From a virus: DNA of 29,318 nucleotides. The first letter of the stretch is position 1; the number at the start of each line of letters is the position of its first letter. The notes beneath the pieces were generated by a model. The model ran no database searches and was not told the DNA's origin. It worked only from the letters and a program-made list of their open reading frames with translations. Location of the stretch: the IMG/VR virus record IMGVR_UViG_3300031509_000005, positions 1 to 29,318 of that record; one strand, written 5' to 3'. The translations under genes were made by a program, and so were the position numbers. This document shows positions 12,156 through 29,318 of the stretch, in pieces.

Positions 12156-13229
12156 ATGGCAGATAAAAAGATTACCGAACTAAATCAGATAACAACTATT
12201 GATCCAACAGATATATTTCCTGTAGTTGATAATCCATCAGGAAGTCCAGAAACAAAAAAATCAACTTTCCAACAATTGGCTGATTGGTTGGCTTCTTTAA
12301 GTCAAACATTGGCTAATAAAACTTTAATTTCATCTACTTTACAGGCAAATAATAATGTTGCCGTTGTTTCTCAAAAAGACAACACTGGGACGGAAAGAAA
12401 TATATTAAAGTTAAATTCCTCAAATGATTTAGAGATTGGGGGTGCTGGTATATCAAGTTATAAACTAAATAATTCAATCATCAAACCATCTTCTGATTCA
12501 ACTTCTGCGATTAAAATAACAAAAGCAAATGGAACGACTACTATATTAAATATAAACAGCACTAATAACTTTGTCGGCATCGGGACGGATAATCCAGTAA
12601 GAAAATTACATATTTACGATACAGATAGTAATGGTGGTTTAAGATTAGAAGGTGGTTCGGATGGACCAAATATTGAATGGAGAACTGGCACTACAAGACA
12701 TTGGAATATTGACCAAGAGGGGACAAATCCTAATTTACGTTTTTTTACAGAAAATTCATCAGACGGAGAGGGAGCGGTAAGGATGCTAATAACAGAATCA
12801 GGTAATGTCGGCATCGGGACGGATAATCCAGCATATAGATTAGATGTCAACGGTCAATGTCACGCTTCTTCTTTTCCAACTTCATCAGATAAAAGATTTA
12901 AAGAGAATGTAAAAGAGATTAATAATGCTTTAGAAAAGGTTAAAAAATTAAGAGGAGTGTATTTTAATTGGAATAAGTTTTATAGAGAAACATTAGAAGT
13001 AGATGAGACTGAAGATACAGAAATTGGTGTTATAGCACAAGAAGTAAAAAAAGTTATCCCAGAGGTTGTTACCACTTTTAAAAGAGAAGTTGGTGGAAAA
13101 AAGAAAAAATATTATTCAGTTGAATACGCAAGGTTATCGGCTTTATTGATAAACGCTATTAAAGAATTAGCCGAAAAAGTTGAAAATTTAGAGAAAAAAT
13201 ATGGAGAAATTAACAACTCAAGAGCTTGA
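12156..13229 (+). CDS. Tail fibre/spike with C-terminal S74 chaperone domain
   Basis: The N-terminal segment (MADKKITELNQITTIDPTDI, residues 1-20 and on to about 55) is a common virion-attachment module of phage fibres. The middle is beta-rich with two NFVGIGTDNP/NVGIGTDNP repeats. The C-terminal 113 residues are an intramolecular chaperone/autoprotease of the S74 family: SSDKRFKENVKEINNALEKV with cleavage expected at Ser244-Asp245 (residues 243-247 SSDKR), then GVIAQEVKKVIPEVV, YYSVEYARL and ALLINAIKEL. The chaperone trimerises the fibre and then cuts itself off. Mature length would be about 244 residues. Its 3' end overlaps the next gene by 29 bases. Confidence 0.88.
   Translation: MADKKITELNQITTIDPTDIFPVVDNPSGSPETKKSTFQQLADWLASLSQTLANKTLISSTLQANNNVAVVSQKDNTGTERNILKLNSSNDLEIGGAGISSYKLNNSIIKPSSDSTSAIKITKANGTTTILNINSTNNFVGIGTDNPVRKLHIYDTDSNGGLRLEGGSDGPNIEWRTGTTRHWNIDQEGTNPNLRFFTENSSDGEGAVRMLITESGNVGIGTDNPAYRLDVNGQCHASSFPTSSDKRFKENVKEINNALEKVKKLRGVYFNWNKFYRETLEVDETEDTEIGVIAQEVKKVIPEVVTTFKREVGGKKKKYYSVEYARLSALLINAIKELAEKVENLEKKYGEINNSRA
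12572..12597. repeat. 26-bp repeat within the fibre gene, copy 1
   Basis: Twenty-six bases encoding the VGIGTDNP motif are identical to 12806-12831. The GC-rich codons (ggc, atc, ggg, acg) contrast with the surrounding A/T-rich coding. The identity at silent positions suggests recent duplication or conversion, or imported sequence. Confidence 0.85.
12806..12831. repeat. 26-bp repeat within the fibre gene, copy 2
   Basis: Identical to 12572-12597, 234 bp downstream and in the same reading frame (234 is a multiple of three). Recombination between the copies would delete 78 residues and leave a shorter in-frame fibre. Confidence 0.85.
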
Positions 13230-13401: not shown

Positions 13402-14250
13402 ATGAAGTTATACAGCAGAGGAACATTTCCATTAACAACAAATATTTATGCTTTAGATGATAGTGATTTATCTACTTTGTATAGTAATAACGAGATTTCA
13501 ATTGTAGATAATGAAGATGATACCTATGTTGATTTAAGCGGTCAAGATTGTTATCTTGTCCATTTGTTTAAAATTTCAGTTGGAGTAAATAAAAAAATAA
13601 CTATTAAATGGGTAGGAAAAACTTCATTGTCTCCAACTCTTTCACCTGTTTATTTTGAAATTTACAATCATTCAACTGGACTTTGGGAAACAGTTGATAT
13701 AAGATATTTAGGCTCGGCTAATGTTAATTTTACTTTAAGTTATAAAATTGAAGCTTATATAGAAAATTACAAAAAAAACAACAATATCTCTGTTCGTGTT
13801 TTACAAAGAAACGATCAATATAATACTGTTTATGTTAAATATTATTTAAAACAAGAAAACTCTTTTTTTTTGCTTCTTGAGAATAGTTCCTTTATTTTAA
13901 CGGAAGAAAGCTATAATGTTAATATTCCAATCACTTATACTTTATCCACCGATTATTTTAATGTTTGTCTTCCTTATTTTGAAAAATATTATGATGTATT
14001 TAATTATTTACTTCTTGAAGATGGTGGCTATTTACTTCAAGAAAATTATTATAAAATTGGATTGGATAATAAATTTAATAAATTTTTAAACAAATATGAT
14101 AGAAAAAATTCTATTTATAGTTTAAAATATAGTCTAAAAAATACCTCATATAACAGTAAATACCAAAATAATAATCCTCCTACTTATTCTTTAAAATATT
14201 CAAAGAAAAACACCATTTATACTGATAAATATACAAATTGTTGCCAATAA
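13402..14250 (+). CDS. Putative tail/fibre structural protein with C-terminal repeats
   Basis: This 282-residue protein is beta-rich and aromatic. The first 120 residues look like a jelly-roll or Ig-like domain (FKISVGVNKKITIKWVGK). Two LLLE-type motifs follow (LLLENSSFILTEE near 155-167 and LLLEDGGYLLQEN near 199-211), a motif common in phage fibre proteins. The last 50 residues hold two near-copies of a 16-residue unit, YSLKYSLKNTSYNSKY and YSLKYSKKNTIYTDKY, and end CCQ. A virion-surface role is likely from composition and position; the family is not recognised. The ATG at 13402 gives the long frame; an ATG at 13395 in another frame does not. Confidence 0.6.
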   Translation: MKLYSRGTFPLTTNIYALDDSDLSTLYSNNEISIVDNEDDTYVDLSGQDCYLVHLFKISVGVNKKITIKWVGKTSLSPTLSPVYFEIYNHSTGLWETVDIRYLGSANVNFTLSYKIEAYIENYKKNNNISVRVLQRNDQYNTVYVKYYLKQENSFFLLLENSSFILTEESYNVNIPITYTLSTDYFNVCLPYFEKYYDVFNYLLLEDGGYLLQENYYKIGLDNKFNKFLNKYDRKNSIYSLKYSLKNTSYNSKYQNNNPPTYSLKYSKKNTIYTDKYTNCCQ

Positions 14251-16881: not shown

Positions 16882-17322
16882 ATGGGAAATTATGGAATAA
16901 AAATAGCAAAACCAACGGCTAATATAAATTCTAACAATCCAAAAGATTATATTTTTTGGAGCAAATATGAAAGTTTATCTTTATATGGAATCTTTTCAGG
17001 AAATATAACTTTATACGCTTCTGATCCAAATAGAGAGACTTATGTTAATGTTTATCATAATTTAGGTTATTATCCAATAGTTAAAGTTTTAGTAAAAGAT
17101 TGTAATAATTTATATTCTATTTTACCTTTGGATTATAGCGAATGTGTTGATTGTGGTAAATTTTATATTCAATCATTATTTTTTACTTATTATATTTATC
17201 CTAATTATGTAAGACTCTATTTAAGTGCTTATTGTTATGAGCGTCAAGGACAAAATTTTAATATATTTTCTAATTTAACTTTTAATTATAAAATTTATGT
17301 TTTTACACAAAAACTAAAATGA
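16882..17322 (+). CDS. Receptor-type tail module, paralogue 3 of 3
   Basis: The 146-residue protein starts MGNYGIKIAKPTANINSNNP, with the shared core VYHNLGYYPIVKV. The first codons are nearly identical in DNA to those of paralogue 2 (ATGGGAAATTATGG), showing a relatively recent duplication. The longest and most aromatic C-terminal half of the three contains paired Cys (SECVDCGK). The start at 16882 is chosen over an upstream in-frame ATG at 16768 because it restores the family N-terminus and lies one base after the previous stop. The stop overlaps the next start. Confidence 0.65.
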   Translation: MGNYGIKIAKPTANINSNNPKDYIFWSKYESLSLYGIFSGNITLYASDPNRETYVNVYHNLGYYPIVKVLVKDCNNLYSILPLDYSECVDCGKFYIQSLFFTYYIYPNYVRLYLSAYCYERQGQNFNIFSNLTFNYKIYVFTQKLK

Positions 17323-18035
17323 GAATATTTTTTGATGAAAATAATAACATTGTAGGATATTCAGTAATATTTAGCAAAGAAAATAAAATAAAAAATAAAG
17401 CTAAAATATCAACTAAAAATAAAAATTTTAATTATTTAGATATTGATAATGATTTAGCCGAAAAGGTTTTAATTAAAGGAATAGACAAATTTGAAATTAA
17501 AAATAATAAGTTAGTAGAAAAAAAAGTAATTGAAGAAAAAAAACTTGATTTTACGACAAAAAAAGTAATTGTAGATTTAAAAAATTTTATAGTAAATTCT
17601 GATTTAAGGCGACATTTAAAAGAAAAAGATAATTATGAGTTTAAAAGAGTTTATAAAATAAAAAAAGAAGAAATAGATTTTAGCTATCTTTATCCTTCTG
17701 ATAGGTTAATTTTAAGTGAAATGTGTGAGAATTGTTTAAAAGGAAAAGAAAATGTTAGGGTTTATTCTTTATATTATAAAGAAAACAACGATTTAGCCGC
17801 TTTATCTTATTTGTCTTATTTTCAAAATATGTTTGAAGTAAAAATTTTATATCATAATGAAAAATATGATAATGCTGGTTATATCATAATTTATTATTTA
17901 ATAAAAGAATTAAAGAAAGAAGGTTTTAAATATTTAAATTTGGGTTCTTTAACTTTTTTAGAAAGTGGAATTAACCAATTTAAAAAAAAATGGGGTAAAG
18001 TTGTTTCTTATGATGATTTAAGAAAAATTCGATAA
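17319..18035 (+). CDS. Two-domain protein: fibre-associated N-terminus and GNAT/FemAB-like acyltransferase C-terminus
   Basis: In this 238-residue protein, residues 1-60 (MRIFFDENNNIVGYSVIF, then LDIDNDLAEKVLIKGIDKFE) resemble short N-terminal modules of phage fibre-region proteins. Residues about 125-238 read as an acyltransferase fold of the GNAT/FemAB-like kind: LYPSDRLILSEMCENC, VRVYSLYYKENNDLAALSYL, then NAGYIIIYYLIKELKKEGFK, YLNLGSL and a final NQFKKKWG. The 'lineage' helix, LxLG strand and FKxxWG end are typical of peptidyl- or aminoacyl-transferase-like domains. Placement directly behind the receptor modules, with ATGA coupling, suggests it modifies a virion or surface component. The substrate is unknown. 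Confidence 0.55.
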   Translation: MRIFFDENNNIVGYSVIFSKENKIKNKAKISTKNKNFNYLDIDNDLAEKVLIKGIDKFEIKNNKLVEKKVIEEKKLDFTTKKVIVDLKNFIVNSDLRRHLKEKDNYEFKRVYKIKKEEIDFSYLYPSDRLILSEMCENCLKGKENVRVYSLYYKENNDLAALSYLSYFQNMFEVKILYHNEKYDNAGYIIIYYLIKELKKEGFKYLNLGSLTFLESGINQFKKKWGKVVSYDDLRKIR

Positions 18036-18129: not shown

Positions 18130-18789
18130 ATGAATACTTTTTCTGAATTAATAGATGCGGTAAAAAGCGATTTATCAATACCTACAACCAGTAGTCTTTT
18201 TAATGATACTACTATTAAATCTGCTATAAATAGAGCATATATTAAATGTAGTTCTTTATATCCTTGGCCTCAACTTGAAGATGCTTTAACTACATCAACT
18301 ATTGCTAATCAAGAATATTACGATTATCCAAACAACTGGCAACCCGATTCAGCTTGGAGACTTGAGGTTGATGGTGAAGATTATGGCGATCCGTTAGTTT
18401 TTAAAGACTATCTTTACGAAAAAGCCAATGGTATACCATCGGGAGCAGATAGACTATGGTCAACACAGTGGAAAAGGTTTTTTATTTATCCAACACCAAC
18501 AAAAAATGGAAATAATAATATAACAATTTGGGGATTAAAGACAGTAGATACTTTAGTCAATAATAATGATACTACTATTTTTTCTTATTCAATGCCAGAT
18601 TGTAATGAAGCAATAGTTTTAGAAGCCGTTGCTATATTAAAGAAAAAAGGCGAAGATGAACAACCGGGTCAATTTAGAAGTTTAGAAGCAAAACAAATTT
18701 TAGCTTTTGCTTGGGATAAAATTCAGAAAAATCAGAATAAATATAAAAAAACAACAACTTTTTTTGAAGTTAATGATTTTTTTAAATAA
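18130..18789 (+). CDS. Head-tail adaptor (P22 gp4 / T7 gp11-like)
   Basis: The 219-residue protein starts NTFSELIDAVKSDLSIPTTS, with FNDTTIKSAINRAYIKCSSL and a WPQLEDA turn. A beta section (YYDYPNNWQPDSAWRLEVDG) and a C-terminal helical part (NEAIVLEAVAILKKKGEDEQ) follow. This pattern is that of adaptor proteins that bind below the portal and gate DNA in short-tailed phages. The length is usual. The position is unusual: it comes after the fibre genes rather than directly after the capsid gene. Confidence 0.75.
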   Translation: MNTFSELIDAVKSDLSIPTTSSLFNDTTIKSAINRAYIKCSSLYPWPQLEDALTTSTIANQEYYDYPNNWQPDSAWRLEVDGEDYGDPLVFKDYLYEKANGIPSGADRLWSTQWKRFFIYPTPTKNGNNNITIWGLKTVDTLVNNNDTTIFSYSMPDCNEAIVLEAVAILKKKGEDEQPGQFRSLEAKQILAFAWDKIQKNQNKYKKTTTFFEVNDFFK

Positions 18790-18792
18790 TTT

Positions 18793-19959
18793 ATGGCAGG
18801 AATATATACACCAGAACAGCTTGGAATAAAACCGCCAAAAGGTGGTTTTAAACAAGGTGGTTGGTATGAGGGAAGACAATATTGGAACGGAACTTTTTCC
18901 GATCCGGGAGTAATTCACCCTCAAAGTAATCAGATAGGAGCAGGACAAGAAGTATCAAAAGAAGTTGTCCAACAGACTAATCCAGCTAACTGGGATTATC
19001 TTCAAAAATTAAAACAACAATCACAACCAAAACCAGTGGCTACATATACTTCACCACCATCTACCCTAACACCATCATCACCATCAATGCCATCATCATC
19101 TGCTTTTAGTATTTTAGGACAACAGCAAATGCCAACTATTGATTTAAAAGGATTATATGATAAGTTGTATAAAGATTTAGGAATAGAACAATTAGAAAAT
19201 GATTTAAAATCAAAAACGCAAGCTTACAATGAAGCAGTGTCAAAAATTAATGATAATCCATTTTTATCCGAAGCAAACAGAGTTGGTAGAATTCAAAAAT
19301 TAACAACTGATTTTCAAAATGCCATTGCTCCTATTAGAGATGAGATAGCTAAAAAAAAAGCTGACATAGAAACACAGCTTAAAATTCAATTAAAACAATT
19401 TGATATCAATAGTCAACAGGCACGAGATGCAAGAGAACAATTAAATTTCTTACTTCAATCGGGTATGCTTGATGGAGCAACAGGTGAAGATATAGCCAAT
19501 CTTACAAGAATGACTGGTATTTCTTCTTCTATGATTGAAGCGGCTATTAAATTAAACAAAGCAAAAAATCTTAAAACAGTTGTGAAATCATTTGATGATG
19601 GAATTAATCAAGGTTTTTATGTTGTTAATGTTGATACCGGAGAAATTGTTAATAAACAAATAGTTGCTAAAAGTAAAGGTTCTGGAACTGGAGGATTAAC
19701 GATTACTCAACAAAGAAATATTACAGGAAACGCAAGAGAAATTATAAGAATAGTTGATGAACAATATAGAACAATTAACGGAAAATTACAAAAACTTGAT
19801 AAAGAAGATTGGAGTGGTGATAAAAGATTGTCGGCTCAAGAGTATTTATTTGCAGTAAGCAAATTGATGGAAAAAACTGGTTTAGATAAAAATACAGCGG
19901 CAGCTTATATTACTCAAGCAATGAAGGATTTGGGTTATTCAAGTTGGAAACCAAAATAA
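18793..19959 (+). CDS. Putative internal virion / ejection protein
   Basis: The 388-residue protein has a Gly/Pro-rich N-terminus (GIKPPKGGFKQGGWYEGRQY). A Pro/Ser/Gln-rich disordered linker follows (about 75-115). A long helical region (about 120-270, including QLENDLKSKTQAYNEAVSKI and TRMTGISSSMIEAAIKLNKA) comes next, and the C-terminal helices look like a short HTH-like pair (LDKNTAAAYITQAMKDLGYS). Long helical proteins placed between adaptor and a giant internal protein in short-tailed phages are usually ejection proteins. No catalytic motif is visible. Stop and next ATG are one base apart. Confidence 0.6.
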   Translation: MAGIYTPEQLGIKPPKGGFKQGGWYEGRQYWNGTFSDPGVIHPQSNQIGAGQEVSKEVVQQTNPANWDYLQKLKQQSQPKPVATYTSPPSTLTPSSPSMPSSSAFSILGQQQMPTIDLKGLYDKLYKDLGIEQLENDLKSKTQAYNEAVSKINDNPFLSEANRVGRIQKLTTDFQNAIAPIRDEIAKKKADIETQLKIQLKQFDINSQQARDAREQLNFLLQSGMLDGATGEDIANLTRMTGISSSMIEAAIKLNKAKNLKTVVKSFDDGINQGFYVVNVDTGEIVNKQIVAKSKGSGTGGLTITQQRNITGNAREIIRIVDEQYRTINGKLQKLDKEDWSGDKRLSAQEYLFAVSKLMEKTGLDKNTAAAYITQAMKDLGYSSWKPK

Positions 19960-19960
19960 T

Positions 19961-22900
19961 ATGGCAGTATGGACTTTGGAAACAGCAGAACAACAATCAG
20001 GAATAAAAATTTCATCACCACAATCGCCTTCTCCAGAAGGTAGCGTGTGGGATTTAAATACCGCAGAAACATATGTAAATTATGAAGCGTCAAAACCTAA
20101 ACAACCATTAACAATATCTCAACCAAAACAAGTAGCAACTACCTCATCTTTTTTTGAAGGGTTTAATAAAATAAAAGAGAATGTTATTAAAATAAAAGAT
20201 GTTATTTTTTCATTTGTCCCAAAACCAGTTAAAGAAGAACTAAGTAAAGTAAGACAAGGATTAACTCAAGGGGTAGAAAGTATTAGTATTTATGATTTAT
20301 TTCCTTTTTTACCCAAACCAGTATACTCACCAGAACCGGAGGGAAGTAAAGGAGATATAAAAGCATTACAAAAGCAATATGAACAAAGTTTAATTGGCAA
20401 ATTTGATGATAAATTTCAAACATCAAAAAACAGTTTTATCAAAGGCTTAACTGGTGGAATTATTAAACCAAAAGAAAAAGTCAATCCTGATTTAGCTGAT
20501 AAGATTATCGCTGGTGTAAGTGAAGCGGTTGGAACAGCAATTACTATTCAAAATATAGGAACAAGACTTTTTAGTTTAGCAGAAGGATCTACTTTGGTTA
20601 AAAACTTTATTGAAAATTATCCTCGTTTAGCTCGTTATACTTTACCACTTTTAAAAAATATTGGGGCGTTTTCAATTTATGGACAGTTAGATCCAGATTT
20701 AAAAGATAGGTTTAAAAAACTTGCTGAAGATGTAGTTGTTTCAGTTCCATTTACTGCTTTGGGATTTGTTGAAAAAGCAAGATATTCAATTCCGGCTTCT
20801 TTTGGTTTGGGATTTGGATTGGCTAAATTAAGTGGCGCTTCAAATGAAGACGCTTTTGTTTCCGGTGTAGTTTTGGGAATTTTAGATGGTTGGGGAAGAA
20901 TGAAAGGAAGAGTATCTGATTTTGTAAAAGGAAGACAAACTGATAAAATTTTAAGAGTTGAAGCTTTAAAAGTTTTAAATGAATATTCTGATATTAAAGT
21001 TAAATTAGGTGATCCGATTGAAAAAATAAATGAGGCTTATCGTTCAGCATCAAAAAAAGTTCATCCAGATATTACTGGTTCAACAAAAGAACAAATAGCT
21101 TTAAATTCTGCTTACGAATTTTTGACTGGAAAATCAAAAAAATTTGACCCATCTATCTTTACAAAAGAAAGATATACACCACAGGAAATAATAAATGAAA
21201 TTATTAAAAATGGTTATGATAAGACAGAAGAAGGAAAAAAACTTATAAAAGGAGCGTTGGAAGCGGAAAATAAAAATCAAGATATAGTGGTTATTCAACC
21301 AAAAAAACCAATAATCACTGAAAAAAAACCGAAAATACCACCAGTTATTACAAAAGAAATACAAAGTAGACAAATACAAAAATTAATTAAAGATATTCCT
21401 GATTTAAGTAAAGCTAAAGATTATGTATCAGCAAAAGATTTTGCTGATGCTCTTTTTTCGGCTCAAGAGACTAATCAGATCGGTAAATTATCACCAGATA
21501 AAATAATTGCTCGTGATTCAGTTGATGAAAAAGGAGTAGCGGATTATATTAAAATGATAGAAGAAGGTAAAAAAGTAGAACCAATTGAAATACAAAAAGA
21601 AGGTGATAAATTTATAACAGTTGACGGCTCTCATAGACTTGAGGCTTTTAGAAGCTTAAATAAAGAAGTTCCAGTTATATATCGCGGTAAAGATAAAATT
21701 GATGGGTTATACACATTTGAAGAGATATTTAATACATTAAAAACCTCTTCCCCATCTATTTCGGAAGTTAAATCAGCAATTACTTCTGAACAACCTTCTC
21801 CAAAAACAACTGGGAAAGAAGTTAAGAAATTTGATATTAGTAGCAAATATGGTTTTGATAAAGTAGATGAGGCTTTTTCTCAAACACCATCGGATCTTGA
21901 TGATAGATGGAATACTGCTAATGAAAAGCTTGATAAGTTTAAAGCTCCATTACAGGAAAAAATAAATAAGTTAAAAAATGAGTTAGAGAAAATAAAAAGT
22001 GATAGAAGTAAGGAAGCAATTGATAGAAAAAAAGAAATAAATAAAGAAATTGAAAATCTTCAGCAAAAAATATCAGAAGCCGAACAAATACTTGAGGAAA
22101 AACAAACTGAATTTAATATGAAACTTGGAAAAATGGCTTTACAAAAAGCAAAAGAAATGGGATTAGATTTAGGTGAAATTGGAGATGGTTATACTAATGT
22201 AAGTGAAAAATGGCAAGAATTTAGAGATGAATTTTTAGTAAGAATTAGCGAGCGACCATATACTGATCATTATTGGGATACTCCATTAAATAAGATTTTA
22301 GAAGATTTAGTAAAACAGTATGGAGTTGAACCAAAAACACAAATAAAACTAGAAACAAAATCTGAAGTTAAACCATCAGAAGAAAAAATAAAATTAGTAG
22401 AAGAAACAAAACCAGAAATATCTCCAGAATTTCAATCATTAGTAGAAGAAGCAAAGAATTATAAAAGCGCGGAAGAATTTGTAAAAGAAAAATTGTTTGA
22501 AGCATACATAAGGCAGTTTGGAGTAGAAAGAGAACTTACAGAACCAGAAAGGAAGGGATTATATCCATCTTTTTTAAAAGATATTAAAAAATATGGATTG
22601 GAAGAAGTTGGCAGACAAATAAGAAGTTATGCGTCGTATCATAAAAGAAATGTTCCAGATATTTTGACCCGTCCTTCCAAATTAATCGAAATTTATAACT
22701 TTGCTCATAAAGAAATATCAAAAGTTAAACCATCAGAAAAACTAAAAGAACAGATAACTGAACAAGTTAAAACAAAAATACCTCCCGAACTTGAACCCTT
22801 TATTAAAGAAGCAAAAAAATATAAAAGCGTAGAGGAATTTATTGAGCAATTTAAAACAAGACCAGAAGAAATTGCTAAATCAATTTATCAAGGTCTTTCT

Positions 22901-25900
22901 GAGCGTCAAAAATATATAATAGAAGAAGCTTTTAGTAAAGCTGTAGAAGATCGAATGACACCAGAAGCAAGAAAATTAAAAGAAACAGTAATAAAAAAAT
23001 GGGCAAGAAGAGATGCTATGATAGAACTTCTTACCGAAATTTATAACGAAGCTAATAGAAGAACAAAACAAATTAATTTATTATCTGAAAATGAAGTATT
23101 TTTAAATAGGGAAAAAAGAATATTAGAAAATATACCGTTAAAAAGCTCACCAGTTGGTCTTTTTTCTTTTGATTTTTTATATAATATAGTGGATGTTCCT
23201 GACTATTTTACTGATGGTTATCTTTTGTTAACTGATAGATATTTAAATGAAGTTGAAAAATGGAAAAACGAAGCAATTAAAAAAGCTAAATATATTAACG
23301 ACTACACAAAAGAAGATGTAGAAAAATTGTTTAATAATCTTGGAAATAGAAATGAATTAGTTAAAATTGATGGAAATAATTTTTATATAGGTTTAGTTAA
23401 AATAGGAAAAGAAAATGAAAAGCCTTATGTTTTATTATATGATAAAAATAATAAAACGAAAATACTTTTAAATTCAGAAGCATACAAATGGTTAAAAAAA
23501 GAAAGATATGATTTTTATTACAATCCAAATATAGCTGATAAAACAGAAGAAACTTATTCAAAACCAATTCTTTTAAAAAGAAATGGAAGAGAAGCAGGAT
23601 TGATAATGCCTACAAGATGGGGTGGTAGAAGTTTAAATGAAGAGGTTGACAAAATAGAAAAAGATACTAAAATAGAATTATATGGCACAAAACGAGATAA
23701 TTTTCCTGGGCGAGAAACTGGACAAAAAGAACTTTCCAGTTCTATATCGGTGGGCGAAAAGCAATCCGGAAACATTGAAAGAACAAGTGATGAGGTTAGC
23801 AAACCAGCCGGGGGGGAGTATAATAAACGCTCTTCAGTCTCTGGAAAGCGACCTTCAACACGGCTAACACCATCACAGCAACAACAAATAAATGCTAAAG
23901 AGGAAATTAAACAAAAAGAGCAAGAATTTAAACAAAAACTTGAAAACGCTAAAAAAGAAAGAATCAATTTAATCGCAAAAGAAAATGATTATAATACTTT
24001 AGTTAGAAGATTGGCTGAAGAAAATAAAACATTTTTTGTTAAAAGAAGTTTGTTTACTACAGATACAAGAAAAGCTCCATCGGGATTTGCTGATGTTGGT
24101 GGTTATTCTAATATAAAAAGTCCAGAAAAAATTATTAATGATATAAAAGCGGTTGAGTTTCCAGAAATTCTTCGGATTGCTAAAAATTTGTTAGGTAAAG
24201 AAGTTAAGTTGTCTTCAAGATTTAAAACTGCTTTAGGCGCTTTTTATCCAAAAACATTTGATATTAAATTAAGTTATGAGATATTTAAGAAACCAGAATT
24301 AACCGCTAAAGTTTTAGCCCACGAACTTGGTCATTTAGCTGACTTTTTGCCTGATAAAACAATGGCAAGAGGAAATTTAGTTGGTAGAATTGCTACTCTT
24401 AAAAAACATTTAAAAAATCTTTATGGAGAATTAGACAATAGAGTAATAAGAGAAGAATTAAAAAAATTAACGCAACTTTGGAAACCATTTGGTGAAAACG
24501 CTAACCCAAAATATACAAAATATCGTTATTCATCATCAGAATTATATGCTGATGCTATATCGGTTTTATTTAACGATCCAGCTTTATTAAAAGAAAAAGC
24601 TCCAACATTTTGGGAGGGATTTTTTGAATATTTAGATAGAAAACCTGAAGTGATGGAAAACTTTAATGAAATTTGGAATTTATTAAATGAAGGAGAAGAC
24701 GCGGTATTTAAGAAAAGAGATGAGGAAATTGACAAAATGTTTAGCAAAGCAGAAGAAAAATTTAAAGCAAAATATGTTGATAGAGAAATGAGAAATAAAA
24801 ATTTAGTCTATCAAATAAAAATTTTATTTGACGATGTTAACAGACCAATTATTGAAAGAATAAACAAATTACAAAAAGAAGGAAAAGTAATTCCACCAGA
24901 ATTAAATCCAGAATATGCTTTAAAAGGACTTCTTTATTCGGATGCTGAAGTTAAAAACTTTATTGAAGATAATTTACAGCCAGCTTTTAATAAAGCAAGA
25001 GAAGTAGAAGATGGTTGGAATAAATTGGGAAAAATATTATTTTATGAACGGGTTATTTATGAACGAGGCGAGCTTGCTAATCCTTTAGGTTATGATCCAA
25101 ATACTGCTTCATTTAATTTAAAGAAAATGGAAGAACAAATGTCGGCTGAAGACTGGCAAAAACTTCAAGAAGCAAAAAAACTATTTAGAGAAGGAGTTAA
25201 AAAAGTTATTGATTTAGCAGAAAAAGAAGGATATTATACACCAGAAACATTAAAGGAAATGAAAATGAACCCGGCTTATGCTACTTTTCAAGTAATAGAT
25301 TATTTAGATACATATATTAGTCCAAGAGTTTATCATCAAGTTGGAACTTTAAAAGAAATATCAAATCCAGCAACAGCAACAGTAATGAAACTTATCTCAA
25401 CTTATAAAGCAATAAAAAGAAACAAAGTTAAAAAATTAAATATTAACTTTTTAAGAGAAAATTTTAGCAATGAAATTGAAAAAGCAAAAACAAGATGGAA
25501 TGGAAAAAGTTTAGATATAATGATGCCAAAAGATGAAAATTTAGGATTGGTAATAACAATAGAAAACGGAAAACCGCAGGGTTGGTATGTGCCAAAAGAT
25601 GTAGCTGAGACTTTAAATTGGGCAAGTAATTCTACTTTAGAAATGCTTGGTAATGTCGCAAGAGCTATTTCTCAAAGCAATTTTTATAGACCATTATTTA
25701 CAATATATAATCTTGGCTTTCAAACATTTAATTTTGTAAGAGATTTAAGTCGTGCTTGGAAAAACTATCCTCATAAAACATTAGCCGAAGTGCCGTTATC
25801 TCCTATTATTGATGCTTATAAATTAGGAAAGGGATATATAAAAGCAATAAAACCAGCCTTTAAAAAAGCTTTTGGATTAAGAGATGAGTTAATAAAAGAA

Positions 25901-27322
25901 ATGGAAAATGCTAATATTTTAGGTTTATCTTATAATGATGTTTTTTCCGGTGAAATACCAACCGAACAACAGCAAATTGAAAGAATTTTAGAAGGATATG
26001 GATTATTTGCGAAAAAAAAGAAATTTAAAATATTGTCTCCAATAATTAATGTTTTAGAAACGGTGGGAAAAGTTGGTGATTTTATTGAAACTTTACCAAA
26101 AGTAGCCGCATATGTAAATTTAAAAGGTGAAATGCCACCCGAACAATTAGCAGAATTTATAAGAACATCAATCGGTTCTCCAGCTTTTAGAGTAAAAGGA
26201 AGAGCAACACCAATAACTAATTCAATTTTCTTATTTTCAAATGCGATAAAAGAAGGTTTAAAGACAGATTTATATATAGCAACTGGTAAAAGAGGAAAAG
26301 CGAGTGCCTCATCTTTTTGGTATAAAACATTTTTGGTTAATATATTACCAAAAGTAATTATAATGGCAATTGCTTTAGGATATTTTGGCGATAGACTAAA
26401 AAAAATTATTAACGGAATATCAGAATATGACAAAACAAATTATAACATAATTCCAATTGGATTAGATGAAAATGGGAAATCTGTTTTTATTAGAATTCCT
26501 CAAGATGAAACTGGAAGATTTATTGGTGGGTTATTTTGGAAAACGATGAATATTAATAAAGATTATGGAATAGTAAAAAGCGTAATGGATGTTCTTTCAT
26601 TTGGGGCTGGACAATTACCAAATCTTTCTCCTTCATTTATTGGGCTTGGTGTTTTAATATCTTATTTTTCTGGTAATAATCCTTATGATTTTTATAGAGA
26701 CAGACCAATTATTCCGGAAAAAGAATTTAAAGCGGGCTTTCATCGTTCATTTCCTATTCTTTTAGATTGGTTGGTAAAAAATCAAGGATTGGCAATAGTA
26801 TTACCATCTTATAGTCCTAAAAATCCAACTGCTTTGGAAAAATTTTTATCTTTACCAGTAATTTCAAATATTATTGGAAGATGGATTAAAGTTTCGGATC
26901 AAGGATTAAGAGAAAAACTTTCAAAGAGTGAAAAATTAATAGAACAAAAAAAAGCAGAAAGGTATTTGGAAATTAGAGATAGGATTGATGATTATGTTAA
27001 AGAGTATCAAAAAAATCCAACGATTGAAAAAAGAAAAGAATTAGAAAGAAAATTATTAAAAGAATTTTTAGAAAAAGGTTCATCAAGTCAAGAAAAAACT
27101 AATCTTATTAAAAGGTTTAGAGTAGCAATTATTAAAGGAAAAGACAATCCATATTTAAATAGTTTAATTTATTCTCAAACAAATGATGAAAAAGTTGAAA
27201 TATTAAAATCAGCAAATAAAGAGTTATCAAATGAAGAATTTAAAAGTATTTTAGAGACAGCAAGAAAAAACAAAATAATTGGTAGTGAGGTTATTAAAAA
27301 GTTAAGAAGACAATTAAAATGA
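19961..27322 (+). CDS. Giant polyvalent virion protein: J domain, ParB-like, HExxH protease, membrane segments
   Basis: This 2,453-residue protein takes about 25% of the genome. In order: a short WTLETAEQ/VWDLNTAE duplicated N-terminal motif; hydrophobic helices (about 180-310); a J domain (about 327-390) with the HPD tripeptide at 368-370 (SASKKVHPDI); a ParB-like domain (about 505-585) with FITVDGSHRLEAFR at 551-564; coiled coil (about 650-720); two related helical units (EFQSLVEEAKNYKSAEEF near 823, ELEPFIKEAKKYKSVEEF near 944); a beta domain (about 1130-1220); a polar linker (about 1240-1305). A metalloprotease follows with HELGH (His1454, Glu1455, His1458) and a downstream Glu1527 in SSSELYADA. 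The C-terminal region is helical, with NFVRDLSRAW near 1924 and hydrophobic segments near 2120-2150. Such mosaics are called polyvalent proteins and are thought to be injected with DNA to act on the host. Exact C-terminal families are unverified. Confidence 0.85.
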   Translation: MAVWTLETAEQQSGIKISSPQSPSPEGSVWDLNTAETYVNYEASKPKQPLTISQPKQVATTSSFFEGFNKIKENVIKIKDVIFSFVPKPVKEELSKVRQGLTQGVESISIYDLFPFLPKPVYSPEPEGSKGDIKALQKQYEQSLIGKFDDKFQTSKNSFIKGLTGGIIKPKEKVNPDLADKIIAGVSEAVGTAITIQNIGTRLFSLAEGSTLVKNFIENYPRLARYTLPLLKNIGAFSIYGQLDPDLKDRFKKLAEDVVVSVPFTALGFVEKARYSIPASFGLGFGLAKLSGASNEDAFVSGVVLGILDGWGRMKGRVSDFVKGRQTDKILRVEALKVLNEYSDIKVKLGDPIEKINEAYRSASKKVHPDITGSTKEQIALNSAYEFLTGKSKKFDPSIFTKERYTPQEIINEIIKNGYDKTEEGKKLIKGALEAENKNQDIVVIQPKKPIITEKKPKIPPVITKEIQSRQIQKLIKDIPDLSKAKDYVSAKDFADALFSAQETNQIGKLSPDKIIARDSVDEKGVADYIKMIEEGKKVEPIEIQKEGDKFITVDGSHRLEAFRSLNKEVPVIYRGKDKIDGLYTFEEIFNTLKTSSPSISEVKSAITSEQPSPKTTGKEVKKFDISSKYGFDKVDEAFSQTPSDLDDRWNTANEKLDKFKAPLQEKINKLKNELEKIKSDRSKEAIDRKKEINKEIENLQQKISEAEQILEEKQTEFNMKLGKMALQKAKEMGLDLGEIGDGYTNVSEKWQEFRDEFLVRISERPYTDHYWDTPLNKILEDLVKQYGVEPKTQIKLETKSEVKPSEEKIKLVEETKPEISPEFQSLVEEAKNYKSAEEFVKEKLFEAYIRQFGVERELTEPERKGLYPSFLKDIKKYGLEEVGRQIRSYASYHKRNVPDILTRPSKLIEIYNFAHKEISKVKPSEKLKEQITEQVKTKIPPELEPFIKEAKKYKSVEEFIEQFKTRPEEIAKSIYQGLSERQKYIIEEAFSKAVEDRMTPEARKLKETVIKKWARRDAMIELLTEIYNEANRRTKQINLLSENEVFLNREKRILENIPLKSSPVGLFSFDFLYNIVDVPDYFTDGYLLLTDRYLNEVEKWKNEAIKKAKYINDYTKEDVEKLFNNLGNRNELVKIDGNNFYIGLVKIGKENEKPYVLLYDKNNKTKILLNSEAYKWLKKERYDFYYNPNIADKTEETYSKPILLKRNGREAGLIMPTRWGGRSLNEEVDKIEKDTKIELYGTKRDNFPGRETGQKELSSSISVGEKQSGNIERTSDEVSKPAGGEYNKRSSVSGKRPSTRLTPSQQQQINAKEEIKQKEQEFKQKLENAKKERINLIAKENDYNTLVRRLAEENKTFFVKRSLFTTDTRKAPSGFADVGGYSNIKSPEKIINDIKAVEFPEILRIAKNLLGKEVKLSSRFKTALGAFYPKTFDIKLSYEIFKKPELTAKVLAHELGHLADFLPDKTMARGNLVGRIATLKKHLKNLYGELDNRVIREELKKLTQLWKPFGENANPKYTKYRYSSSELYADAISVLFNDPALLKEKAPTFWEGFFEYLDRKPEVMENFNEIWNLLNEGEDAVFKKRDEEIDKMFSKAEEKFKAKYVDREMRNKNLVYQIKILFDDVNRPIIERINKLQKEGKVIPPELNPEYALKGLLYSDAEVKNFIEDNLQPAFNKAREVEDGWNKLGKILFYERVIYERGELANPLGYDPNTASFNLKKMEEQMSAEDWQKLQEAKKLFREGVKKVIDLAEKEGYYTPETLKEMKMNPAYATFQVIDYLDTYISPRVYHQVGTLKEISNPATATVMKLISTYKAIKRNKVKKLNINFLRENFSNEIEKAKTRWNGKSLDIMMPKDENLGLVITIENGKPQGWYVPKDVAETLNWASNSTLEMLGNVARAISQSNFYRPLFTIYNLGFQTFNFVRDLSRAWKNYPHKTLAEVPLSPIIDAYKLGKGYIKAIKPAFKKAFGLRDELIKEMENANILGLSYNDVFSGEIPTEQQQIERILEGYGLFAKKKKFKILSPIINVLETVGKVGDFIETLPKVAAYVNLKGEMPPEQLAEFIRTSIGSPAFRVKGRATPITNSIFLFSNAIKEGLKTDLYIATGKRGKASASSFWYKTFLVNILPKVIIMAIALGYFGDRLKKIINGISEYDKTNYNIIPIGLDENGKSVFIRIPQDETGRFIGGLFWKTMNINKDYGIVKSVMDVLSFGAGQLPNLSPSFIGLGVLISYFSGNNPYDFYRDRPIIPEKEFKAGFHRSFPILLDWLVKNQGLAIVLPSYSPKNPTALEKFLSLPVISNIIGRWIKVSDQGLREKLSKSEKLIEQKKAERYLEIRDRIDDYVKEYQKNPTIEKRKELERKLLKEFLEKGSSSQEKTNLIKRFRVAIIKGKDNPYLNSLIYSQTNDEKVEILKSANKELSNEEFKSILETARKNKIIGSEVIKKLRRQLK

Positions 27323-27483: not shown

Positions 27484-28521
27484 ATGAAAATCAATTTACC
27501 AAAAATATACAGTCAAAATGATGAGCAGTGGAAAAACAAGACGCTTGGGACAAAAGGAACTATTGGTGCTTATGGTTGTCTTTTGACTAATATAGCAATG
27601 CTGTGTGTATATTTTGGAAAAAATGAGACACCGGACACTCTTAATGAAAAACTAAAAAAAAATGGAGGATATGTAAATGGTAATTTGTATGTTTGGGGAG
27701 CATTGACTAAAATTTATCCTGATATAACTTATCAAGGTCAAGTCTTAACTCCCAACCCTCTTACCAAAGCCCAGATGGATTTTATAAGAGCTAGGATAGA
27801 TGAAGGTTATCCAGTAGTTTTACAGATAGATACGATCCCATCTACTTCTCAATTAGATGAGCACTGGATTTTAGCCGTTGATTATGATGGAGACGACTTT
27901 ATTATCGTTGATCCGTGGGATGGAGCGGTAAAGAGAATAACCTCTTGGGGCGTTCAACCTCAAAAATTAATCTACGCTTATGCTTGGTATAAAGGAACCC
28001 CTGCTAAACCAACTGGCGATTATTATCTTGGAATTGATTTAAATAATAAAGAAAGTATAAAAGTGTGTGTAGATATTTGGCATAGAGTAGTTATTAAGAA
28101 AGAGTTTATTGAAAAAAATGAGGTTGAAAATAATTATGTTTTAAAATCAGAATATAAAAATTTAGAAAGCCAACTTTCTCAAAAAGATGAAACGATTAGA
28201 AATTTAAATTTACAAATTGATGAGTTAAACAAAAAAAATACAAAAATTAATGATGAAAACAGAGATCTTCAAACTCAATTAAAAAATTGTCAAAACAAAC
28301 TAAATGAAACAACTGAAACTTTTAGCAATCAACAGAAAGAACTGCTTGAATTAATTAAAGAGTATAATCAACTTAAACTTGATTATGAGAACGCCAAAAA
28401 AGATTGGGGATTGAAAGAGATTAACTATCAAAAACAAATAAAAATTTTACAAACAAAATATGATGCGACTAAATTTAGTATTAAAAAGTTGTTAATTGAT
28501 TATATTTTTGGAAAAAAATAG
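27484..28521 (+). CDS. C39-type cysteine peptidase endolysin with coiled-coil tail
   Basis: In this 345-residue protein, the N-terminal domain (about 1-170) is a peptidase C39-like fold: YSQNDEQWKNKTLG, then GAYGCLLTNIAM with nucleophile Cys32, DEHWILAVDY with His127 and VDPWDG with Asp143. A short module follows (GIDLNNKESIKVCVDIWHRV, about 184-203) that resembles a recurrent element of phage lysins and may bind the wall. The last 140 residues are one long coiled coil. C39-like phage enzymes cut peptide cross-links in the wall. No signal peptide is visible, so export would need the holin genes downstream. Placement at the head of the lysis cassette fits. Confidence 0.85.
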   Translation: MKINLPKIYSQNDEQWKNKTLGTKGTIGAYGCLLTNIAMLCVYFGKNETPDTLNEKLKKNGGYVNGNLYVWGALTKIYPDITYQGQVLTPNPLTKAQMDFIRARIDEGYPVVLQIDTIPSTSQLDEHWILAVDYDGDDFIIVDPWDGAVKRITSWGVQPQKLIYAYAWYKGTPAKPTGDYYLGIDLNNKESIKVCVDIWHRVVIKKEFIEKNEVENNYVLKSEYKNLESQLSQKDETIRNLNLQIDELNKKNTKINDENRDLQTQLKNCQNKLNETTETFSNQQKELLELIKEYNQLKLDYENAKKDWGLKEINYQKQIKILQTKYDATKFSIKKLLIDYIFGKK

Positions 28522-29191: not shown

Positions 29192-29318
29192 AAAGGATAA
29201 TGAGAAAATATTATAAACAAAAAGCAATTTTTTTAATTGGTTTAAAATCCTCTTGACAAATTATTTATAATTTATTATAGTCATTTTATAAAAATTAAAT
29301 TAAATTAAAATATGGTAA
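29192..29318. repeat. Terminal direct repeat, right copy
   Basis: Identical to 1-127. Joining the two ends at this repeat places promoter P1 about 140 bases after the holin gene and closes the map without breaking any gene. Confidence 0.95.

Follow-up and report, generated by a model that had tools for sequence, protein, structure and literature searches.

A 2,453-residue phage protein, probably a virion-carried polyvalent protein, joins a J domain and a ParB-like domain to a conserved zincin core

The viral record analyzed here, called the window, is 29,318 bp long. About a quarter of it had been described as coding for one protein of 2,453 residues, and this is what we found: a single open frame on the plus strand, 19961–27322, occupies 25% of the record. 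An exact repeat of 127 bp is common to both ends (1–127 and 29192–29318), which suggests a complete, circularly closed assembly. Since 127 is a common largest k-mer of assemblers, the repeat is perhaps not a biological terminal repeat.

The giant gene lies among virion genes, with tail-fiber, tail and conserved upstream genes before it and a C39 peptidase gene after it. Directly upstream is a 388-aa gene (18793–19959, plus strand), placed by synteny, whose homologues stand 5–16 bp upstream of the giant gene in the sibling of the window (L134) and in L018, L055, L017, L006 and L130. It is preceded by a 219-aa tail protein (18130–18789, plus strand), identified by a weak match to phrog_10775 and syntenic in L018, L055 and L017, while a 470-aa gene at 14238 has homologues 2.8–4.2 kb upstream of the giant gene in several lineages. 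Downstream, a gene for a C39-like peptidase with a coiled coil (27484–28521, plus strand; PF13529, E 3e-12) is probably a lysis or cell-wall gene, and a similar gene follows the giant gene in L018 and L007. Two further genes were observed in this part of the window. The tail fiber (12156–13229), with many tail-fiber PHROG matches, ends in a region resembling an S74-type intramolecular chaperone (SSDKRFKENV...), and a 238-aa gene resembling an acyltransferase (17319–18035), with no PHROG match, was seen only in the window and its sibling among the loci compared.

The motifs reported earlier for the giant protein lie exactly where they had been placed: HPD at residues 368–370, DGSHR at 555–559, HELGH at 1454–1458 and Glu1527, the last confirmed by an SSELY that starts at 1525. 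HELGH at 1454 is the sole HExxH of the protein. From the protein's own composition, 0.005 HExxH and 0.025 HPD would be expected by chance, and predicted structures place each of them in the fold where it belongs. The "hydrophobic stretches" also mentioned reduce to one: residues 2124–2142 (26330–26386, plus strand), a modeled helix within the C-terminal core, form the sole strongly hydrophobic segment, and no other segment exceeds 1.3 in a 19-residue Kyte–Doolittle window. The N-terminal region (residues 1–330; 19961–20950, plus strand), which is moderately hydrophobic or amphipathic from about residue 180, has no recognized domain and no credible Pfam match. Pfam matches of the giant protein to HTH_20, Prominin and Syntaxin were taken as chance or coiled coil.

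The J domain spans residues 336–400 (20966–21160, plus strand), with HPD at 21062–21070. It matches PF00226 (E 4e-4, under the Pfam curated cut-off) and phrog_13942 (E 2e-6). Residues 324–604 were modeled from a six-row alignment, and the overall pLDDT of 62.9 is low; locally, most of the J region reaches 80–89 and the ParB region 74–86, with low values in the linkers. The model has three helices with the HPD loop between helices II and III. Foldseek against the PDB retrieved DNAJA1 (2lo1, prob 0.96, rmsd 1.6) and Tim14 (2guz, prob 0.97) at E-values of only 0.5–0.9, so the assignment draws jointly on sequence, probability and motif. In helix II the domain is not identical to Escherichia coli DnaJ. 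On this combined evidence, the J domain proposed earlier can be accepted.

The adjoining ParB/sulfiredoxin-like domain (residues 505–580; 21473–21700, plus strand), with DGSHR at 21623–21637, matches phrog_1033 (E 3e-6). Its model retrieved from the PDB sulfiredoxin (6ky4, E 8e-4), ParB (7bnk), Noc, SbnI and free serine kinase, with prob 1.00. Thus the ParB-like domain of the earlier note is borne out by PHROG, model and Foldseek as a ParB/sulfiredoxin fold with a conserved Asp/Arg pocket, DGxHR. The protein of the window gave no match to the DdrB-type ParB model PF18763, whereas L012, of the same core family, matches it at E 1.5e-32.

The third domain is a zincin-like metallopeptidase (residues 1396–1570; 24146–24670, plus strand), identified by motif conservation and model, with HELGH at 24320–24334 and Glu1527 at 24539–24541. 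Its Pfam match, SprT-like, has an E-value of 0.001 and stays under the curated cut-off; sequence and model both agree with the protease motif that had been claimed, HELGH with a downstream Glu ligand. When relatives were compared, this motif proved to be conserved: among those of the first 91 family proteins that cover the motif in question, 87 of 88 retain HExxH and 89 of 89 the third-ligand Glu, figures best judged in loci found via the other motif, since the search patterns held one or other of the two. Asp1461, three residues past HExxH, is kept in 77 of 89. Across 84 aligned lineages the first His, its Glu and the third-ligand Glu are invariant, and the second His is kept in at least 90%. 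L009, with HELGQ for HELGH at residues 1460–1464, is the only member of the family in which a zinc ligand was seen to be lost.

Beyond what the earlier note had described, the conserved core runs about 750 aa past the zincin, into a helical region (residues 1571–2320; 24671–26920, plus strand) recognized by model and BFVD. The zincin and the C-terminal region were matched together in 161 of 167 loci, and AlphaFold2 on the 84-lineage alignment gave residues 1395–2320 a mean pLDDT of 88.8 and a pTM of 0.84, the zincin segment lying mostly at 90+. The whole core had no match in the PDB at E<=0.001 by Foldseek; metallopeptidases (lethal factor, LTA4 hydrolase, 3khi) appeared only at E>0.1. BFVD gave 71 core matches at E<=1e-3, with names that include large polyvalent protein associated domain 38 (LPD38), LT_GEWL, RelA/SpoT and methylase; those named LPD38 reached E 3e-16 and 1e-13. 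The LPD38 Pfam model PF18857 matched neither the whole protein nor the C-terminal piece alone. In hhalign, the core profile aligned with a giant DarB-like protein from Vibrio phage VvAW1 that carries a bona fide LPD38 (E 2e-40). The alignment covers the zincin and a further 280 or so residues (prob 94%, E 8.5e-8), and the LPD38 segment alone gave no significant score against the core. The giant protein of Ochrobactrum phage POI1126 was tried as a relative and set aside, as it gave no alignment to the core; it carries LPD39 and LPD3.

By scanning IMG/VR with successive core alignments we collected 167 family loci, a number that includes the window, its sibling, Baldr and repeat matches on the same contigs; 85 lineages were left at 75% identity. 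Among named phages, tblastn with the window protein and four family members found Pelagibacter phage Baldr only, and no relative turned up when genome contigs were scanned with the first core alignment. Throughout the family the region upstream of the zincin core is exchangeable and the core is constant. The cassettes seen upstream are J, ParB-like, DarB-like methyltransferase–SNF2 helicase, transglycosylase, GGDEF, RadC and ADP-ribosyltransferase-like. An Eco57I-type methyltransferase with an SNF2 helicase occurs in L002, L005, L020, L032, L041, L049/L050, L082 and L085; a strawberry-notch-type helicase in L010, L013, L033, L046 and others; a DdrB-type ParB with a phosphoribosyltransferase in L012; and a PARP-like cassette in L017. 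A transglycosylase-like segment, identified by motif and with no Pfam match, occurs in Baldr, L015 and L016. GGDEF (diguanylate cyclase) domains were observed inside the giant proteins of L011/L090 and L082 (L011:7046–13111, residues 691–849, E 2e-22; L082, residues 538–658, E 5e-14); possibly these phages inject a c-di-GMP synthase. A GGDEF domain in a polyvalent protein was noted earlier, in the survey of these proteins (PMC5512222). RadC was observed in 10 phage proteins (L009, L012, L030, L038, L047, L051, L052, L060, L062 and L079), although the same survey lists RadC for polyvalent proteins of conjugative elements only (PMC5512222).

Within the 167 loci, convincing J domains are confined to three proteins, those of the window, the sibling and L085 (which appears twice, as L085/L093). 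A weak J match in L117 was rejected, the rest of the J fold being absent. The J domain is therefore not general, being present in few of the roughly 85 lineages, but it is unchanged between the window and its sibling. L085 is distant, with 29% identity to the window in the core, and its J domain is independently supported (Pfam E 0.005; phrog_9210, E 5e-7). It has the order J, DGSHR (at 949), methyltransferase–helicase, zincin core, which is the order of the sibling. The order J, ParB, zincin, which had been called unusual, is indeed so within the core family, but recurs in this distant lineage; common descent and repeated gain could each account for it. A scan with the J and ParB region alone returned the sibling again and no further relative. 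A joint J and ParB alignment with L085 was dropped for short pieces, as the long L085 linker had misplaced the J domain.

The sibling, L002, has a giant protein of 3,543 aa at about 96% DNA identity, and it differs from the window at two places, both in frame. About 573 bp of the window (191 aa; residues ~1036–1225; 23064–23634, plus strand; "...KPILLKRNGREAGLIMPTR...") are absent from L002, and about 3.82 kb of L002 (~1,275 aa) are absent from the window, where the corresponding site is 23898–23900 (plus strand). The extra block of L002, a module missed in the earlier note, codes for an Eco57I-type methyltransferase and an SNF2 helicase and is homologous to P1 DarB (26.6% over 60%, E 9e-17); the window protein lacks this DarB-like N6 methyltransferase and SNF2 helicase. 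The idea that one site had been swapped was rejected, as a shared 266-bp piece separates the two differences. Since L041 has both a GLLMP-type segment and the methyltransferase–helicase, it would be simpler for each sibling to have lost one module, although gain may have occurred instead. It is unlikely that the window allele is an assembly deletion of the sibling allele, because the window has a segment that the sibling lacks. The 191-residue segment has no Pfam match. It was seen again, ending in G-x-[LIV]-M-P, in L041 (residue ~895), L053 (~1054), L055 (~988), L142 (~514) and Baldr (L003, ~1021). An iterated profile built from it ("LPDw") drifted onto lysine-rich C-termini and was discarded.

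The same pair allowed selection to be estimated. Over 2,178 codons the giant protein has a dN/dS of 0.19 against L002, with 0.32–0.38 in the linkers versus 0 in the J domain, 0.019 in the ParB-like domain and 0.093 in the zincin; for the J domain the counts are small (0 nonsynonymous and 4 synonymous differences in 65 codons).

Several disparate domains thus share one chain: J (co-chaperone), ParB/Srx fold, zincin and LPD38-like core. The earlier description of this chain as a polyvalent protein is upheld by the fold match of the core to LPD38 and large polyvalent proteins, the zincin, the ParB-like domain, the cassette variation and the DarB-homologous module of the sibling. We consider it likely that the giant protein is carried in the virion of a short-tailed phage and ejected from it. 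Virion carriage is supported by the synteny and, by analogy, by the proteome in which a 4,515-aa protein of Burkholderia phage JC1 was found; our search found no virion proteome for the phage of the window or a close relative. The zincin and LPD38-like helical region would be the constant unit, probably packaged and delivered, and the cargo would consist of the J domain, the ParB/sulfiredoxin-type DNA- or nucleotide-handling domain and the 191-residue uncharacterized domain. In this scheme the protein would be packaged in the head and would pass out via the tail in a partly unfolded state; once in the cytoplasm, the J domain would recruit host DnaK, so that the rest could be pulled in or refolded; the ParB-like domain and other cargo would act on DNA; and the zincin would free cargo or cut a target, either the polypeptide itself or an early host target. 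In the sibling, the DarB-like methyltransferase–helicase would modify the incoming DNA against restriction. Self-cleavage is not a given, because the N4 virion RNA polymerase, which bears a zincin, is packaged unprocessed (PMC5512222). From fold and HPD motif we tentatively suggest, at somewhat less than even odds, that the J domain recruits host DnaK to import or refold cargo. The bolder proposal, that an injected J domain in the cargo chain makes the host Hsp70 (DnaK) a Tim14-like import and refolding motor at phage entry, is more doubtful.

The J domain might instead work in the producing cell, recruiting DnaK to fold or package the ~280-kDa protein or the virion and standing idle after ejection. 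A protein of this size may need folding help, and J domains are thought to aid viral assembly elsewhere (SV40, cited in PMC12619734). Yet in about 83 of the 85 lineages, whose proteins are comparably large and share the core, no J domain is detectable, so that J is not required for folding of the core; moreover, in both lineages that have it, the J domain precedes the ParB domain and belongs to the exchangeable half. We therefore hold this reading to be somewhat unlikely. It is also unlikely that the J domain serves counter-defense, as a decoy or competitor for DnaJ/DnaK-dependent phage sensing: phage sensing by bNACHT25 needs DnaJ (PMC12169576), and polyvalent cargo is generally proposed to be anti-defense (PMC5512222), but nothing in the sequence points to such a role.

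For the zincin, it is possible, if not especially likely, that it acts as a maturation protease, cleaving the giant protein while the head assembles, in which case the virion would hold fragments. P1 DdrB is packaged processed, and its own C-terminal zincin has been proposed to be responsible (PMC5512222), whereas the N4 polymerase cited above from the same source is a zincin-bearing protein packaged intact. The invariable inheritance of the zincin with the C-terminal core could equally mean action with the core at entry. Finally, long linkers rich in lysine and glutamate could suggest an ordinary large structural protein with decorative motifs. The strong purifying selection on the domains (J 0, ParB 0.02, zincin 0.09, against linkers at 0.32–0.38) and an active site conserved in about 85 lineages make this highly improbable.

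Three things are new here: the J domain, a second lineage in which it recurs with the order unchanged, and two siblings set apart by a DarB-like module. Placed in a protein that is probably ejected, the J domain leads to a testable hypothesis, namely recruitment of host DnaK by the phage at entry, and bears on how giant ejection proteins enter the cell and fold there. The siblings, differing by the DarB-like module and the 191-residue segment with frame and core kept, are a natural experiment on the gain and loss of anti-restriction cargo. The core family, with its roughly 85 lineages and Baldr as sole named phage by tblastn, provides a reference for annotating hypothetical proteins.

Among known systems, the closest likeness is to the polyvalent proteins defined by Iyer et al. 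2017, for which delivery with DNA, processing by zincins and ParB-like nucleases are proposed in that survey (PMC5512222). With its phage-type, LPD38 subset the window protein has in common a giant multi-domain chain in a virion gene module, cassette variation, a zincin with Asp three residues after HExxH, a ParB-superfamily domain and an LPD38-like C-terminus (PMC5512222). It differs in having a J domain and in matching neither PF18763 nor PF18857. JC1 has a gene order like that of the window. Its gp69, a DarB-like, LPD38-containing protein of 4,515 aa that takes up 22% of the genome, was identified by 51 unique peptides in purified virions and ends the virion module shortly before lysis (PMC9144972); it is an analogue, not an established homologue, of the core. 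In VvAW1 the giant protein that aligns to our core profile lies near a DNA-ejection gene. P1 DarB is a virion antirestriction protein, and JC1 and VvAW1 have DarB-like antirestriction proteins; a module homologous to DarB is found in the sibling, not in the window copy.

T7 gp16, a giant and ejected internal virion protein, resembles the family in another way: Baldr, L015 and L016 have a lytic-transglycosylase-like N-terminal segment, an arrangement in marine phage homologues that recalls gp16. No homology was found between the core and gp16, which is not known to contain a zincin, a J domain or a ParB domain.

The J domain itself resembles those of known co-chaperones (DnaJ/CbpA, Tim14/Pam18 and the J protein of phage RB43) in its HPD loop between helices II and III and in its fold matches. 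"DnaJ" and "J domain" occur 0 times in the text of the founding survey (PMC5512222), and J-domain genes of phages are known as separate proteins (PMC12619734). In the named phage record MW202738 the J gene is likewise small and stands alone, unlike the J domain of the window, which is embedded in a phage protein of 2,453 aa.
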